Below are positions 6,185 to 11,099 of a stretch of 64,000 bases of DNA, one piece after another; the first letter of the stretch is position 1, and each line of letters begins with the position of its first letter. Position numbers and translations under genes: made by a program. Source of the stretch: Rhodoferax sp. (GTDB lineage Bacteria > Pseudomonadota > Gammaproteobacteria > Burkholderiales > Burkholderiaceae_C); contig JAUXOA010000051.1 of assembly GCA_030682475.1 (NCBI GenBank), positions 1 through 64,000 of the forward strand. Reading direction: 5' to 3'. Under the pieces are notes generated by a model. The model saw nothing but the letters and a program-made list of their open reading frames with translations, was not told the DNA's origin and ran no database searches.

Positions 6185-6451
6185 TTACTTGCGCAGACCC
6201 AGCTTGGCGATCAGCGCGGTGTAACGCTCAGCGTCTTTGGATTTAAGGTAGTCCAGCAGCTTGCGGCGGCGGCTCACCATGCGCAGCAGACCGCGGCGAC
6301 CGTGATGGTCTTTGGCGTGGGTCTTGAAGTGAGGGGTGAGTTCGTTGATACGGGCCGTCAACAGTGCCACTTGCACTTCGGGGCTGCCGGTGTCACCGGC
6401 CTGGCGTGCGTTGTCTTTGACGACAGCGGCTTTGATACTGGATGCGATCAT
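6185..6451 (-). CDS. rpsO: 30S ribosomal protein S15
   Basis: This is an 88-residue 16S rRNA-binding ribosomal protein of standard length. It contains the family signature [49 protein letters not shown], given here as one continuous conserved block covering residues 21 to 70. It starts at ATG. It is followed by a strong terminator and then pnp. The region upstream of it is the left edge of the accessory restriction-modification island. Confidence 0.97.
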
Positions 6452-6558
6452 GTTATTTTTCCTGTTAATGCGGGGGCCTTGCGGGCGCCCCTGTTTTCAA
6501 CTTGCGCCAACGGCTGGAACTGCCACGGGCGTGCGCTTGCGGGATGCAAAGCCTTGAG

Positions 6559-6564
6559 ATTATA
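6559..6564 (-). promoter_or_regulatory. Putative rpsO promoter -10 box
   Basis: TATAAT occurs on the minus strand about 108 nt before the rpsO start codon in an otherwise GC-rich stretch. No good -35 hexamer was seen at 17 nt, so only the -10 match supports it. Confidence 0.45.
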
Positions 6565-6651
6565 GCCCGGAACCAGAGATTACGCCTCTTGAGCCAGTTT
6601 TTCAGACAGAACGTCTCACCGAAAATACTACTGGTTATTCGTACAGATTCG

Positions 6652-6665
6652 ATGTAACATTACAT
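6652..6665. promoter_or_regulatory. Candidate operator palindrome upstream of the RHH-methylase genes
   Basis: ATGTAA-CA-TTACAT is a perfect 6-2-6 dyad ending 26 nt before the start codon of the small ribbon-helix-helix-like gene, in an AT-rich promoter-like stretch. Proteins of that fold commonly bind short dyads in their own promoters. The assignment is inference. Confidence 0.4.
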
Positions 6666-6691
6666 AAGTCACATCATTAGAGAGAATCGCC

Positions 6692-6898
6692 ATGAGTCAA
6701 GGTCCAAGCGGGAGAATGGTTGTCGAGATGGAGCCGCAGCTTAAGAAACGTTTGTATGCGTCTCTTGCAGTCGACGGTCTCACCTTTAAGCAGTGGTTGA
6801 TTTGGCAGACAGAGCGCTACTTGTCTGGACGTGATCAACCGCTTTTGTTTGCCGCAGAGTCATTGCCCCCGACGTATGGCAAACAGCGCGGTCAGTAG
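6692..6898 (+). CDS. Small ribbon-helix-helix-like protein, putative regulator of the RM cassette
   Basis: This is a 68-residue protein with no name I recognise. Its predicted layout is a beta strand (GRMVVEMEPQ, about residues 7-16) followed by two helices (LKKRLYASLAVDG and TFKQWLIWQTERYL). That is the ribbon-helix-helix plan of small dimeric DNA-binding regulators. The tail is short and basic. It sits 22 nt upstream of the methyltransferase on the same strand, and a 14-bp palindrome lies in its promoter. A control-protein role for the cassette is inferred from position and fold only; an antitoxin-like role is possible but no toxin partner is visible. Confidence 0.65.
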   Translation: MSQGPSGRMVVEMEPQLKKRLYASLAVDGLTFKQWLIWQTERYLSGRDQPLLFAAESLPPTYGKQRGQ

Positions 6899-6920
6899 AA
6901 AATCCTCTTAGGACGACACA

Positions 6921-8573
6921 ATGAATTTCATTGAAAACGAATCAGAACAGAAACTAAGAGGTGGGTACTACACCCCGCCTGATTTAGCCCTATTCATGGC
7001 GCAATGGGTCAAGGAAATCGCCCCCAAAATGGTCCTTGAACCTAGCTGCGGTGACGGTGTGTTTTTTAACGCGCTGTCCAAAGTCAAGGGTTTCAAGAAA
7101 TCGACGATTGTGGGCTTCGAGCTCGATGCCGCAGAAGCGGAGAAAGCTCGCGAATGCGCGCGAGACTCAGGCCTGAACGACACAAAAATCCACTCTGCCG
7201 ACTTTCTTCAATGGTCTCTGGAGACCCTAAAAGACGGGTCAAGCAAATTCGATGCAGTTGTTGGTAATCCGCCTTTTATTCGCTATCAATATTTGCCCGA
7301 GCCATTTCAAGTTAGAGCAGAAGCGATCTTCAATGAGCTTTCGCTTCCGTTCACCAAACATACGAATGCCTGGGTCTCGTTCGTTCTTGCCTCTATGGCA
7401 CTGCTCCGACCTGGTGGACGACTTGCAATGGTCGTACCATCCGAGATTATTCACGTTACACATGCTCAGTCTTTGCGCTCTTACCTCGGAAGCATTTGCC
7501 GGCGCCTCGTCATCATTGATCCAGAGGCGTTATGGTTCAGCGACACTCTGCAAGGCGCAGTAATATTGATGGCGGAAAAAAAATGTAGCGAAACCGAAAC
7601 AGCCGAGGGACTTGGCATCTATCCTGTTAAAGATCGTGAGTTCCTTCTCTTATCGCCATCCGATGTGTTCAACAAACCGATTTCAATTAACGGAAAGACT
7701 GTGCGCGGCAAATGGACCCGTGCCTTGCTTGACCTTGAGACTAGATCGCTATTCGATGAATTGACAGATCGCACGGAGATTTATCAATTTAAAGATATTG
7801 CCAAAGTGGACGTAGGGATCGTCACCGGGGCAAATAAATTCTTCCTTGTCCCGGACAGTGTCGTAGAGGCCTATGGCTTGGAACAATGGGCACATCCGAT
7901 GTTCGGGCGCAGTGAGCATTGCCCCGGCATCATCTACGACCAAGAACAGCACACAACAAATGCCATTAAAGGCAATCCGACGAACTTTTTATGGTTCAAC
8001 GAGAAAACGCGCACCATCGACCCTGCGGCAAAGAGTTACATCAAGACAGGCGAACATCAAAACTTGCATACCCGCTACAAATGCCGAGTTAGATCACCTT
8101 GGTACACCGTTCCTTCGGTGTATTCAACTGAGATTGGAATGTTAAAGCGATCCCACAATACGCCTCGTTTGATACTCAATACGGTTGGCGCATACACGAC
8201 CGATACGGCCTACCGAATTCGGACAAGTAAGGTTGTCGCCGAGAAGTTGGTGGGGTGCTTCGTCAACCCCCTCACTGCTTTGAGCGCAGAGCTTGAGGGC
8301 CGCCATTACGGAGGTGGGGTACTCGAATTGATCCCCTCTGAGATCGAGCGACTGCTGGTACCTCTTCCAGAAAAGGTGAAGGTAGATTTAGTCAAACTTG
8401 ATCAAGAGATTCGCACCTTGTCGACACATCAAGTGCTAATGAATCAAGGACAAGTCGTCCTTGGTGCTCTGGGGCTCTCGGCAGAAAAGCAGCACTGTGT
8501 GCTCGAAGGTTGGCGCAGTTTGCGTGATCGACGTCAGCGAACGTCGAGTGAGCCCTTGGACGCAGGCGATTAA
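6921..8573 (+). CDS. N6-adenine DNA methyltransferase (gamma class, TaqI/Eco57I-like)
   Basis: This 550-residue SAM-dependent methyltransferase has its motifs in gamma-class order: motif X GGYYTPP (residues 14-20), motif I LEPSCGDGVF (39-48) for SAM, acidic GFELD (65-69), HSADFL (91-96) and catalytic motif IV VVGNPPF (113-119). The C-terminal half has no catalytic motif and is the likely target-recognition region. It starts at ATG with an AGGA ribosome-binding site. Its stop codon overlaps that of the convergent PLD-type nuclease, as expected for a restriction-modification pair. Base composition is more AT-rich than the backbone, indicating transfer. The DNA target is unknown. Confidence 0.88.
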   Translation: MNFIENESEQKLRGGYYTPPDLALFMAQWVKEIAPKMVLEPSCGDGVFFNALSKVKGFKKSTIVGFELDAAEAEKARECARDSGLNDTKIHSADFLQWSLETLKDGSSKFDAVVGNPPFIRYQYLPEPFQVRAEAIFNELSLPFTKHTNAWVSFVLASMALLRPGGRLAMVVPSEIIHVTHAQSLRSYLGSICRRLVIIDPEALWFSDTLQGAVILMAEKKCSETETAEGLGIYPVKDREFLLLSPSDVFNKPISINGKTVRGKWTRALLDLETRSLFDELTDRTEIYQFKDIAKVDVGIVTGANKFFLVPDSVVEAYGLEQWAHPMFGRSEHCPGIIYDQEQHTTNAIKGNPTNFLWFNEKTRTIDPAAKSYIKTGEHQNLHTRYKCRVRSPWYTVPSVYSTEIGMLKRSHNTPRLILNTVGAYTTDTAYRIRTSKVVAEKLVGCFVNPLTALSAELEGRHYGGGVLELIPSEIERLLVPLPEKVKVDLVKLDQEIRTLSTHQVLMNQGQVVLGALGLSAEKQHCVLEGWRSLRDRRQRTSSEPLDAGD

Positions 8574-9772
8574 TCGATCTCCAGCACAAAGCGAGTCGAT
8601 TCGGCTTTGTCCCGGTACAGCGCCAGCGTGCGGTCGATTAGATCGGGGCGTGCGATGTACTCGCGCATTGGCCCCCAACTCAGACGCGTCATCGCATTAT
8701 TTTGTACGTAGGTCTTGCTGGTTTTGTCCGTACTGTGGCCGATCCTGAGATCAAACTCACCATAGCTAATGCCCTTAAGAACCAATTGAAACTTGGCGAA
8801 CGCCTCTTCAACTTTCCCTGAGGCGTTCGTCGCTGTCCAAGTCAAATCCGGGAATACATCGTCTCTAAAGTAGTGCCGCTGATCAGCAGCATCGGGTAGA
8901 AGCCCTTTGTCAAGGTTTATTGACCCCGTCGCATGTGTACCCGTAGCATTGGGAATTGTCAGGTCGCGACGGGTTAACGGTTTGCTCTCCCACACTAACT
9001 CGAACTCGACACCCACAGCAATCGGAACCGGTTTCAACTTGGCCACTCCCACTTTTGTTGCGGCCACAACCTTGGATGTTTTCAGTTTCTTAGGCGCCGC
9101 CTTTGCCTTCGCGAGCGCACGTCGAATGGGTAAAACCTTCAGCTTTATTCGAGCAACCGAATCGCTTGACCCGGCACTCCCTGCGGATGTTGTGGGCCGG
9201 GGCGGCGGAATGGCCATTTCGTCGACCAAGCGACCACTCGCAAGCATTGAATCCAGTTCAGCAACCGAGCCAATTTCCAAGATGTTCCCGGGATAATCCG
9301 TCGGCAAGACGGCAAGTTGAGCCTCAATGCCATCGACGATAGCTTTATCGGCCGCATTAGCCAAATCAAAATGAAGCAGCATCCCCGCTTCGATGTTGTT
9401 GTTCAAGCCCCCAAGGGTAAGGTTTGCACTTCCCAGAAGTAGCTTGGCGTGTGATTTGCCTCGGACCAGATATAGTTTTGGATGGAAAACGACCATCCGC
9501 GAACCCGTATCAACAACGTACAACTTGTTGGCAATGCCATGCAGGCGTATGAGCCCTTGATGTGACGTGATGTCATTCCGAATTCCGGCAAACACTGTGA
9601 CTTTCGCCGCATGAGCCTTGAGCTCGGCCGCGATCTGGTCCACACCACTTTCGCTGACGAAAGCTACACTCAAAACCACCTTTTTGATTTCTGGCAGATC
9701 AAACAGTTCCCGAACGGCGACCGCATGAGTACGCGTCGTAAATCCCTGCAAGATGAATTCTTTATGTGCCAT
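8570..9772 (-). CDS. PLD-family nuclease, probable restriction endonuclease (NgoFVII/BfiI-like)
   Basis: The protein has about 400 residues. The N-terminal half is a phospholipase D-type nuclease domain with the motif HPKLYLVRG...GSANLTLGG, i.e. H97-x-K99, S115 and N117, followed by E128. One such motif per chain means an active site formed by a dimer, as in BfiI. A low-complexity Ala/Pro/Lys linker joins it to a C-terminal region (LVWESKPLTRRDLTIPN through WGPMREYIARPD) that resembles the B3-like DNA-binding domain of NgoFVII-type enzymes. The ATG at MAHKEFILQGF was chosen; an in-frame TTG lies 39 nt upstream. It converges on the methyltransferase with overlapping stops. Restriction activity is inferred. 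Confidence 0.75.
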   Translation of the reverse strand: MAHKEFILQGFTTRTHAVAVRELFDLPEIKKVVLSVAFVSESGVDQIAAELKAHAAKVTVFAGIRNDITSHQGLIRLHGIANKLYVVDTGSRMVVFHPKLYLVRGKSHAKLLLGSANLTLGGLNNNIEAGMLLHFDLANAADKAIVDGIEAQLAVLPTDYPGNILEIGSVAELDSMLASGRLVDEMAIPPPRPTTSAGSAGSSDSVARIKLKVLPIRRALAKAKAAPKKLKTSKVVAATKVGVAKLKPVPIAVGVEFELVWESKPLTRRDLTIPNATGTHATGSINLDKGLLPDAADQRHYFRDDVFPDLTWTATNASGKVEEAFAKFQLVLKGISYGEFDLRIGHSTDKTSKTYVQNNAMTRLSWGPMREYIARPDLIDRTLALYRDKAESTRFVLEID

Positions 9773-9818
9773 ACGCAAGTCTTTCAAAATCGAATTCGTG
9801 GCGATGGCCAACCGTTGT

Positions 9819-9926
9819 TTAGTTACCCGCTGTGCATGTGCGGTAGACGTCGTAGTTGACGTTGATACCGTCGGTTACGGCCTTCTCGTGGCCGTATTCC
9901 ATGACCAAGTTCCCTACATGGTTCAT
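9819..9926 (-). pseudogene. Remnant of a type I restriction enzyme HsdR subunit
   Basis: A 35-codon reading frame on the minus strand encodes GNLVMEYGHEKAVTDG and INVNYDVYRT, then runs into a stop. From memory of the family this matches the conserved helicase-core segment of EcoEI-type HsdR proteins (NLVMEYGHE-AVADGVNV-YDVYRI-T). A complete HsdR is roughly ten or more times longer, so this is a decayed fragment. It occupies most of the space between the PLD nuclease gene and the neighbouring aminotransferase. Confidence 0.65.
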
Positions 9927-9932
9927 TCTAGG

Positions 9933-11099
9933 CTAGCCAGGGCCGGCGGCCACTAGCCAACGCTTCAGCCGTTCCACCCCCTGCACCAGCCGCTGCGGGT
10001 CCCTGGAGGCAAAGCACCAGCGCAGCCAGCCCTGCGCCTCAGGAGCGAACGCCTCGCCCGGTGCCAAACCCAACCCGGCCTCCAGCACCAGCCGTTTGGC
10101 TGTGGTGAGTGAATCGTCAAAGCCCGCCAGCCTGAAAAAGGCATACATGCCGCCGCGTGCCGGGGCCACCTGCACCCCGGGAATTGTCTGCAACAGGGGA
10201 ATCAGGGTGTCACGGCAGGCCTTCAGATGGGCCACTACCCGCGGCGTCACCTCATCGGTGCGCAGCAGGGCCGCGACACCGGCGCGCTGTGTGAAAACAC
10301 TGGCGCACGAGGTGTTGAACTCAATCAGCTTGCCCATGTGCTGTGTCATGGCCGGGGGCATCACCAGCCAGCCCAGTCGCCAGCCGGTCATGAAAAAACT
10401 CTTGGAAAAACTGTGCACCACCACCAGGCGGTCATCGGGCCTGGCCAGATCGAGAAAACTGGGGGCGCAGCCGTTGGATGTGGGTTCAAAATAGAGCCGC
10501 TCATAGACCTCGTCGGCCAGAATCCAGGTGCCGGTACGGCGGCAATGGTCCAGGATGCGCTGCTGCGCGTCCCGCTCAAGCGTCCAGCCGGTCGGATTGT
10601 TGGGGGCGTTGATGATCAAGACCTTGGTGGACGCCGTGACAGCCTCCAGCAAAGCATTCATGTCCAGCGTCCACGCGCCATCCAGCGGGGCCAGCGACAC
10701 GCACTTGACGCGGGCCCCCATGATGGCGGGCTGCGCCGTCAGGTTGGGCCACACCGGCGTCACCGCCACCACCTCATCACCGGCATCGACCAGCAGTTGG
10801 ATGGCCAGCATCAGCGCGTTGACGCCACCGCTGGTGACGGCCACGCGCTCCACGCCAATCGGGCCGTGGCGCGCGCTCATGTAGTCCGAAATTGCCTCGC
10901 GCAATTCGGGCAGGCCCAGGTTATGCGAATAAAAAGTTTCGCCGCGCTGTAGCGACTCGATCGCCGCCTGGCGAATGAAATCGGGCGTGACTTCGTCGCT
11001 CTCGCCAAACCAGAAAGCCAGCACATCACTGCGCCCGATACCGGCATTGGCGACTTCACGGATTCTGGATTCTTCAAGGTTCTGGATGACTTGACGCAT
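9933..11099 (-). CDS. PLP-dependent class I/II aminotransferase
   Basis: This 388-residue cytosolic fold-type I aminotransferase shows the family pattern: SHNLGLPELREAISDY near the N-terminus, VTSGGVNALMLA for cofactor phosphate, INAPNNPTGW, ILADEVYERLYF with the PLP-ring aspartate and tyrosine, and HSFSKSFFMTGWRLGW carrying the Schiff-base lysine. The substrate cannot be read with certainty; aspartate or aromatic amino acid transaminases are the closest families. It starts at ATG and is 23 nt downstream of a periplasmic binding protein gene on the same strand, so both may be co-transcribed. Confidence 0.88.
   Translation of the reverse strand: MRQVIQNLEESRIREVANAGIGRSDVLAFWFGESDEVTPDFIRQAAIESLQRGETFYSHNLGLPELREAISDYMSARHGPIGVERVAVTSGGVNALMLAIQLLVDAGDEVVAVTPVWPNLTAQPAIMGARVKCVSLAPLDGAWTLDMNALLEAVTASTKVLIINAPNNPTGWTLERDAQQRILDHCRRTGTWILADEVYERLYFEPTSNGCAPSFLDLARPDDRLVVVHSFSKSFFMTGWRLGWLVMPPAMTQHMGKLIEFNTSCASVFTQRAGVAALLRTDEVTPRVVAHLKACRDTLIPLLQTIPGVQVAPARGGMYAFFRLAGFDDSLTTAKRLVLEAGLGLAPGEAFAPEAQGWLRWCFASRDPQRLVQGVERLKRWLVAAGPG

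Follow-up and report, generated by a model that had tools for sequence, protein, structure and literature searches.

Does the accessory island that lies between rpsO and an aminotransferase gene in Rhodoferax sp. encode a complete restriction-modification (R-M) system, and if so, which of the known designs does it follow and how might it be controlled? The island, an insert of about 3.4 kb, is found in a stretch of 64,000 nucleotides (positions 1 to 64,000 of contig JAUXOA010000051.1, assembly GCA_030682475.1), hereafter the window. It encodes a small protein, a DNA methyltransferase (MTase) and a convergently oriented nuclease with an N-terminal phospholipase D (PLD) domain and a predicted C-terminal B3 domain, an arrangement already given in a preliminary description of the sequence and confirmed by the open reading frame (ORF) coordinates, down to the stop codons of the MTase and nuclease genes, which overlap by 4 nt (TTAA). 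We consider it very probable that this island is an intact, horizontally acquired type II R-M system of compact, BfiI-like design, working by the mechanism proposed in the sections below.

Acquisition of the island and pairing of its genes

The same locus in related genomes and the base composition indicate that the island was acquired horizontally. The aminotransferase gene was sought in 30 genomes and matched in six others of the same genus; rpsO lay on the same fetched stretch in five of the six (L089-L093), and in all five the insert is missing, the aligned ends of rpsO and the aminotransferase gene being 75-163 nt apart and nothing lying between them. Comparison of these empty sites with the window by blastn leaves retained blocks at about 6499-6567 and 9955-10000, and places the insertion point just upstream of the TATAAT box of rpsO. 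The GC content is 49-54% in 1-kb segments within 6501-10000 (52% in segment 6001-7000, which is partly inside the island) as against 54-65% in nearly all other segments of the first 20 kb; the composition reported earlier as AT-rich is therefore lower in GC than its surroundings, and AT-rich only in that relative sense.

The MTase and the nuclease are inherited together, in agreement with the preliminary description. A pattern scan of 84,980 species genomes gave 57 loci, 24 of which (L029-L052) match the whole nuclease; the other 33 stand outside the pairing count, 32 matching only part of the PLD domain and one, L053, being truncated and having no MTase within its stretch of 9.4 kb. A convergent MTase accompanies all 24 full-length relatives (23 adjacent, 2786 nt apart in L045) and also the nucleases of two viral contigs (L027, L028) and two plasmids (Yoonia pBS5-3-2 and Roseobacter pROLI24), which brings adjacency to 27 of 28 relatives. 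With the window included, 26 of 29 pairs share the 4-nt stop overlap, the exceptions being L028, L033 and L045, and the protein distances of the two enzymes are correlated (Mantel r=0.766; none of 5000 permutations as high, the largest reaching 0.472). The related loci L029/L030, L039/L041 and L019/L047 are kept in these counts, and the loci are not all independent; L109, L111 and L101, where a nuclease match likewise adjoins the MTase, are outside the 29, and L107 and L112 are repeats of L027 and L028. An example of tail-to-tail R-M genes whose stop codons overlap has been described in Psychrobacter pP62BP1 (PMC3346939).

The combination of PLD-B3 nuclease and MTase is uncommon. A profile of the B3 domain finds two of the 398 genomes of a phylum sample, and the MTase is found in seven of the 398 at E<=1e-60, the window's own genome being counted in both cases. 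The record titles of the 57 loci include proteobacteria, several Patescibacteria, one Woesearchaeota and one Gemmatimonadota metagenome-assembled genome (MAG), some of the contigs being short. A phage collection yielded MTase matches at only 22-27% identity, in 11 records, and no match to the standalone B3-like protein of L108. Two variant loci were also seen: an Arenimonas MAG carries a second, diverged PLD-B3-like gene (27% identity; L036:9239-10513) near its main pair, and in the Sphingobium plasmid pl6 (L021) a close MTase, in two pieces of 73.5 and 77% identity, is split by an IS1380 element, the nuclease being reduced to a C-terminal remnant.

The nuclease

The start codon listed for the nuclease is TTG 9811; the alignment of most full-length relatives starts instead at the residue of ATG 9772, and the gene is taken to begin there (Table 1). 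A profile built from the window protein and 26 relatives (A3, 27 rows) matches BfiI (2c1l, E=7.6e-10), SauUSI (1.4e-6) and R.NgoAVII (0.0021), in every case within the PLD part. The residues H97, K99, N117 and E128 do not vary in any of the 27 rows, and are spaced like H105, K107, N125 and E136 of BfiI, as counted from the alignment. Together with the BfiI match, this bears out the earlier assignment to the PLD superfamily. Two other labels were considered and set aside: the DISARM protein DrmC (27.5 bits against a cut-off of 133) is a generic PLD match, and the partner genes of DISARM are absent, the other island proteins being the MTase and the small protein; a SauUSI-type type IV label is likewise a generic PLD match only.

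The features of the BfiI-type class are present in the form of a single HxK with N and E and, in the predicted structure, a C-terminal B3 domain. The model of the whole protein (predicted local distance difference test, pLDDT, 80.8; predicted template modelling score 0.55) is of low confidence at residues 188-203 and 219-254, and the linker between the domains is probably flexible. Its best structural match is BfiI, over both domains (Z 19.9, 276 residues), with a root-mean-square deviation (rmsd) of 18.8 that presumably reflects domain orientation. Folded alone, the C-terminus (alignment A6, 26 rows, L030 and L041 omitted and one standalone B3-like ORF of L028 included) reaches a pLDDT of 91.9. 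In a second structural comparison plant B3 factors, BfiI, EcoRII, UbaLAI, LlaJI and NgoAVII fill the first 25 rows at Z 5.9-9.6, the following row falling to Z 3.0; the match to the B3 domain of BfiI has Z 8.9 and rmsd 3.3 over 117 aligned residues. The EcoRII-N, LlaJI-N, VRN1, At1g16640 and ARF domains among these comparisons are B3 or B3-like. The C-terminus had been described as probably B3-like, with a check of its fold suggested, and the predicted structure provides such a DNA-binding fold. Several results weigh against this assignment: a Pfam scan of the 27 nucleases gave no B3 family match, no B3 match was obtained by sequence, so that the assignment rests on predicted structure, Foldseek with the isolated domain returned nothing below E 0.001 (EcoRII-N 1.7e-3, BfiI 4.7e-3), and a BFVD search was likewise empty below that value.

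We propose that the nuclease dimerises via its PLD domains to form one metal-independent HxK active site, and that the B3 domains would read the unmethylated site, with cleavage a few bases away in type IIS style. Like BfiI and BmrI (type IIS, ACTGGG), it combines an N-terminal PLD domain bearing HxK...N...E with a C-terminal B3 reader, BfiI being the closest solved structure. Unlike them, it shows sequence similarity confined to the PLD core, has the low-confidence linker just described and is partnered by a single M.Eco57I-family MTase. Nucleases of this kind had been called rare at the outset, and here the BfiI-like identity stands and the rarity has to be qualified: a 2014 review calls PLD-type restriction endonucleases 'far from rare', with more than 40 putative ones in REBASE, and describes BfiI and BmrI (PMC4081073).

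The methyltransferase

The MTase, earlier described as a gamma-class N6-adenine enzyme, belongs specifically to the M.Eco57I family by Pfam (M_Eco57I_C, 305 bits, plus N6_Mtase and Eco57I domains), and matches the PADLOC model MTase_II (PDLC03267) with 639 bits over residues 1-540. Its NPPF motif, residues 116-119, is unchanged in 27 of 27 aligned rows. With an N6-adenine domain, M_Eco57I_C and NPPF all present, its sequence is that of a full-length, intact family member; for comparison, the relative on an E. coli plasmid (L025) scores 611 bits against M_Eco57I_C.

According to PMC3874165, M.Eco57I is a gamma-MTase of degenerate CTNNAG specificity, so that both strands of CTGAAG are methylated, and diversification of the Eco57I nuclease is confined to the central two bases by the need for M.Eco57I. 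The island MTase would mark adenines, probably with this degenerate CTNNAG specificity of the family, a single enzyme protecting both strands of an asymmetric site. Compared with the others of 15 MTases chosen from 42, the window enzyme has diverged to a similar degree in its C-terminal, site-reading half and in its catalytic half (53% and 51% identity, respectively, to L025), an evenness that fits conserved specificity. Other observations speak against it. The MTase of L028 is 66-67% identical to those of L023, L025, L102 and L103, four rows of the type IIG clade, in the catalytic half and 54-60% in the C-terminal half. When codons were shuffled in the 52 genes of 26 MTase-nuclease pairs (near-copies L030, L041 and L047 omitted), neither CTGAAG (z -1.5, rank 288 of 2073 6-mers) nor CTNNAG (z -0.8) was clearly avoided, and this test gave no credible recognition motif; the most depleted 6-mer is CCTGGA (z -4.5), which we do not take to be a target.

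The small protein and a candidate operator

The small protein is homologous to 62-residue proteins (group A, 31-43% identical to it) encoded on Acinetobacter and E. coli plasmids ahead of M.Eco57I-like MTases. A group-A homologue lies before the MTase in 10 of the 29 loci, its gene overlapping that of the MTase by 4 nt in eight of the ten, and group A also precedes MTases paired with type IIG enzymes, in the Acinetobacter and E. coli plasmids and in L103. A palindromic site is conserved upstream, and is described here for the first time. In 16 group-A loci (repeats L100, L107 and L112 excluded), TGTNACA occurs in the 70 nt upstream of the start codon in 14; the control windows from the same loci have it in 18 of 2544 cases, and 2000 shuffles of the same stretches have it in a mean of 0.3 and at most 3 of 16 loci; the exact ATGTNACAT is found at this distance in 13 of 16. 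The sole exact copy in the window's 64 kb lies at 6652-6660, where 0.5 would be expected by chance, so this single site is not significant alone.

The arrangement suggests that the small protein is probably an autorepressor of the regulator-MTase operon, one that would bind the ATGTNACAT repeats of its own promoter and repress once MTase is sufficient; the delay in repression would allow an early burst of methylation in a new host. There are parallels with type II systems under the control of C proteins in the small putative DNA-binding protein, the palindromic upstream site and the likely control of timing. The differences are also instructive: C proteins have a helix-turn-helix fold, whereas the island protein is ribbon-helix-helix (RHH)-like and probably co-transcribed with the MTase, and in the window the site stands only before the MTase operon. 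The preliminary idea of a small RHH-like regulator of the R-M pair survives in that the protein occurs with the MTase and behind a conserved site, and is modified in that it goes with the MTase family and not with the nuclease.

Several findings weigh against this account of control. The least secure part of the observation is that the protein is RHH: an RHH fold for group A is likely, but Pfam RHH_10 matches at E=0.11, below cut-off, no significant RHH family or structure match was found in Pfam, PHROGs or the PDB, and the group-A profile is only weakly similar to accepted RHH groups in profile-profile comparison. Of 20 loci lacking group A, three (L026, L033, L043) also carry TGTNACA in the 420 nt that precede the MTase. 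No copy stands before the window's nuclease gene, the timing of which is thus unexplained; operator control of the nuclease was rejected, a site lying near the nuclease start in only one (L051) of 30 loci with a nuclease match. A sigma-70 scan gave no promoter-like site before the small protein on its strand inside the island, and promoter and terminator counts over the region were no higher than in shuffles.

One could argue from such results that the small protein is a passenger or antitoxin-like relic with no part in regulating the island. The commonest weak PHROG match of group A is indeed a HicB-like antitoxin, seen in 5 of 11 members with a best E of 0.039, and in 5 of 29 loci nothing recognised as a small regulator precedes the MTase. 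Against this explanation, which we regard as unlikely, stand the recurrence of homologues and overlapping genes before the same MTase family, the conserved palindrome before the small protein and MTase genes, and the accepted RHH or LexA proteins that occupy the same place in sister systems.

Comparison with helicase-dependent and degraded systems

The CglI/NgoAVII systems (GCCGC) share the PLD and B3 domains of their R-protein with the island nuclease and require a helicase (PMC4267653). The island could accordingly encode an ATP-dependent system of this kind, its nuclease needing a helicase encoded elsewhere or one whose remnant is the stretch at 9822-9932 on the minus strand. This stretch, between the nuclease and aminotransferase genes, holds about 35 codons similar to a DEAD/DEAH helicase (tblastn, 59% over 27 aa, E=5e-3) and had no match in a Pfam scan; it is possibly the scar of an earlier defence or restriction gene at the site, and looks HsdR-like in our own reading. 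Such a system has, in our judgement, little chance of being what the island encodes. The shared architecture is real (R.NgoAVII 4rct, Z 11.0; PMC4267653) and the possible scar adjoins the nuclease, but the B3 domain of R.NgoAVII stands towards the lower end of the B3 matches (Z 5.9-6.2), its profile match is much weaker than that of BfiI, and the MTase and nuclease genes of 26 of the 29 pairs abut by their overlapping ends. In that source, CglI-type systems carry a helicase N-protein and a C5-cytosine MTase, neither of which was found in the island: its MTase is from an N6-adenine family, and no helicase ORF was recognised inside it beyond the short stretch above, the wider flanks of relatives not having been scanned for helicases.

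It is very improbable that the pair is degraded or repurposed, with an inactive nuclease, or one whose B3 part is mainly a DNA-binding regulator, beside an orphan epigenetic MTase: standalone B3-like ORFs beside the same MTase family (L022, L028, L108) and a locus (L102) with MTase and group-A protein and no recognised nuclease within about 1.5 kb would agree with this, but the window genes are intact, the four catalytic residues are invariant and the two proteins co-vary.

The BfiI-like type II reading also has to be set beside the Eco57I system (RM.Eco57I and M.Eco57I, CTGAAG). The MTase family is the same (Pfam M_Eco57I_C), and in type IIG-partnered relatives the genes are likewise convergent and the group-A small protein recurs; the island nuclease is a separate 400-residue PLD-B3 protein and not a bifunctional type IIG fusion (R-M-S) of about 1000 residues. 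Searches of the open-licence literature returned, in their ranked lists and passages, no M.Eco57I-type MTase paired with a PLD-B3 nuclease and no RHH-type regulator of such a pair, although REBASE may list members.

Exchange of partners around the methyltransferase

That the M.Eco57I-type family partners type IIG as well as PLD-B3 nucleases is new here. The type IIG partners of L022-L026 all score 868-1598 bits over nearly the full PADLOC model PDLC03604. A tree of the MTases (42 rows, quick method, L101 and L106 excluded) has three changes between PLD-B3 and type IIG partners, L102, L108 and L110 being uncounted, and L028, a PLD-B3 locus, groups with the E. coli/Acinetobacter-type rows (Shimodaira-Hasegawa-like approximate likelihood ratio test, SH-aLRT, 99); the long branches of L022, L104 and L111 and the quick method weaken this tree.

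Regulators are exchanged among these relatives as well, which is also new. A second RHH group precedes the MTase in 5 of 29 loci (RHH_1 above cut-off in both members tested), and LexA/S24-type proteins in another five, about 200 residues long in four and a 78-residue piece in L038; the two tested both have LexA_DNA_bind and Peptidase_S24. The LexA/S24-type loci (L039, L041, L043 and L048, with the L038 piece) are labelled Patescibacteria and Woesearchaeota, and their MTases group together (SH-aLRT 99). ParG-like plasmid proteins, one of which was tested, precede the MTase in four loci and are possibly merely the plasmid's own partition gene. Regulator labels on 31 rows of the tree need seven changes, where three is the minimum; shuffling the labels gave a mean of 14.6 and, in 200 trials, never a value as low. 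The window, a group-A locus, has the group-B locus L031 as its neighbour in the tree (SH-aLRT 91, not starred), so a recent exchange is likely.

The comparison of MTase halves, taken with the reported CTNNAG specificity, suggests a shared shield that tolerates different nucleases. Since M.Eco57I is degenerate (CTNNAG; PMC3874165), we tentatively offer a broader proposal, about which we have more doubt than conviction: the degenerate MTase may be a general shield behind which evolution can swap unrelated nucleases, type IIG or PLD-B3, whose recognition of sites within CTNNAG was acquired independently, and also regulators that are unrelated (RHH-like, accepted RHH, LexA), and standalone B3 proteins may reuse the nuclease reader as regulators or site-blockers. 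Three such B3-like ORFs stand beside M.Eco57I-family MTases. In L022 (Lysinibacillus pFN9A) a 144-residue ORF, 44% identical to the window B3 domain, is divergent from an MTase with a type IIG neighbour (M_Eco57I_C 146 bits, 34% identical to the window MTase); in L028 one of 146 residues lies just upstream of the PLD-B3 gene; and in L108 one of 148 residues takes the place that a full PLD-B3 gene occupies in its close relative L109. Those of L028 and L108 have no Pfam family match, and the positions of those of L022 and L028 resemble those of regulators.

Coordinates and a second rpsO locus

The assembly of the window contains a second pnp-rpsO-aminotransferase stretch (L099; 83%, 87.5% and 74% identity), with no island between rpsO and the aminotransferase gene. 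Because pnp is normally single-copy, this MAG may mix two organisms.

Table 1. Positions of the island, its genes and associated features; coordinates refer to the window unless a locus is named.
Feature	Position	Strand	Details	Basis
Inserted island	6568-9954	none	approximate borders, from rpsO promoter to 3' end of aminotransferase gene	blastn against empty sites
rpsO	6185-6451	-		
TATAAT box before rpsO	6559-6564	-	outside island; also present in empty sites	
Candidate operator	6652-6674	+	ATGTAACAT (6652-6660); second half-site GTCACAT (6668-6674)	
Small protein	6692-6898	+	68 aa	ORF list
MTase	6921-8573	+	550 aa	ORF list
TTAA, overlapping stop codons of convergent genes	8570-8573	none		
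PLD-B3 nuclease	8570-9772	-	400 aa from ATG 9772	
C-terminal B3 DNA-binding domain (predicted)	8573-9010	-	residues 255-400	predicted structure
N-terminal PLD domain	9212-9772	-	about residues 1-187; H97-x-K99, N117, E128	
Aminotransferase	9933-11099	-		
Standalone B3-like ORFs beside M.Eco57I-family MTases	L022:4995-5429; L028:6061-6501; L108:7587-8033			

Implications

The LexA-type proteins that precede the MTase in five loci suggest that in those systems control may be linked to DNA damage. If a degenerate MTase permits the exchange of nucleases, this would help to explain how new restriction specificities arise without death of the host. Few relatives of BfiI have been studied, and the loci assembled here provide about 30 natural variants in which the specificity of the MTase is partly known, so that the site of cleavage may be predictable.

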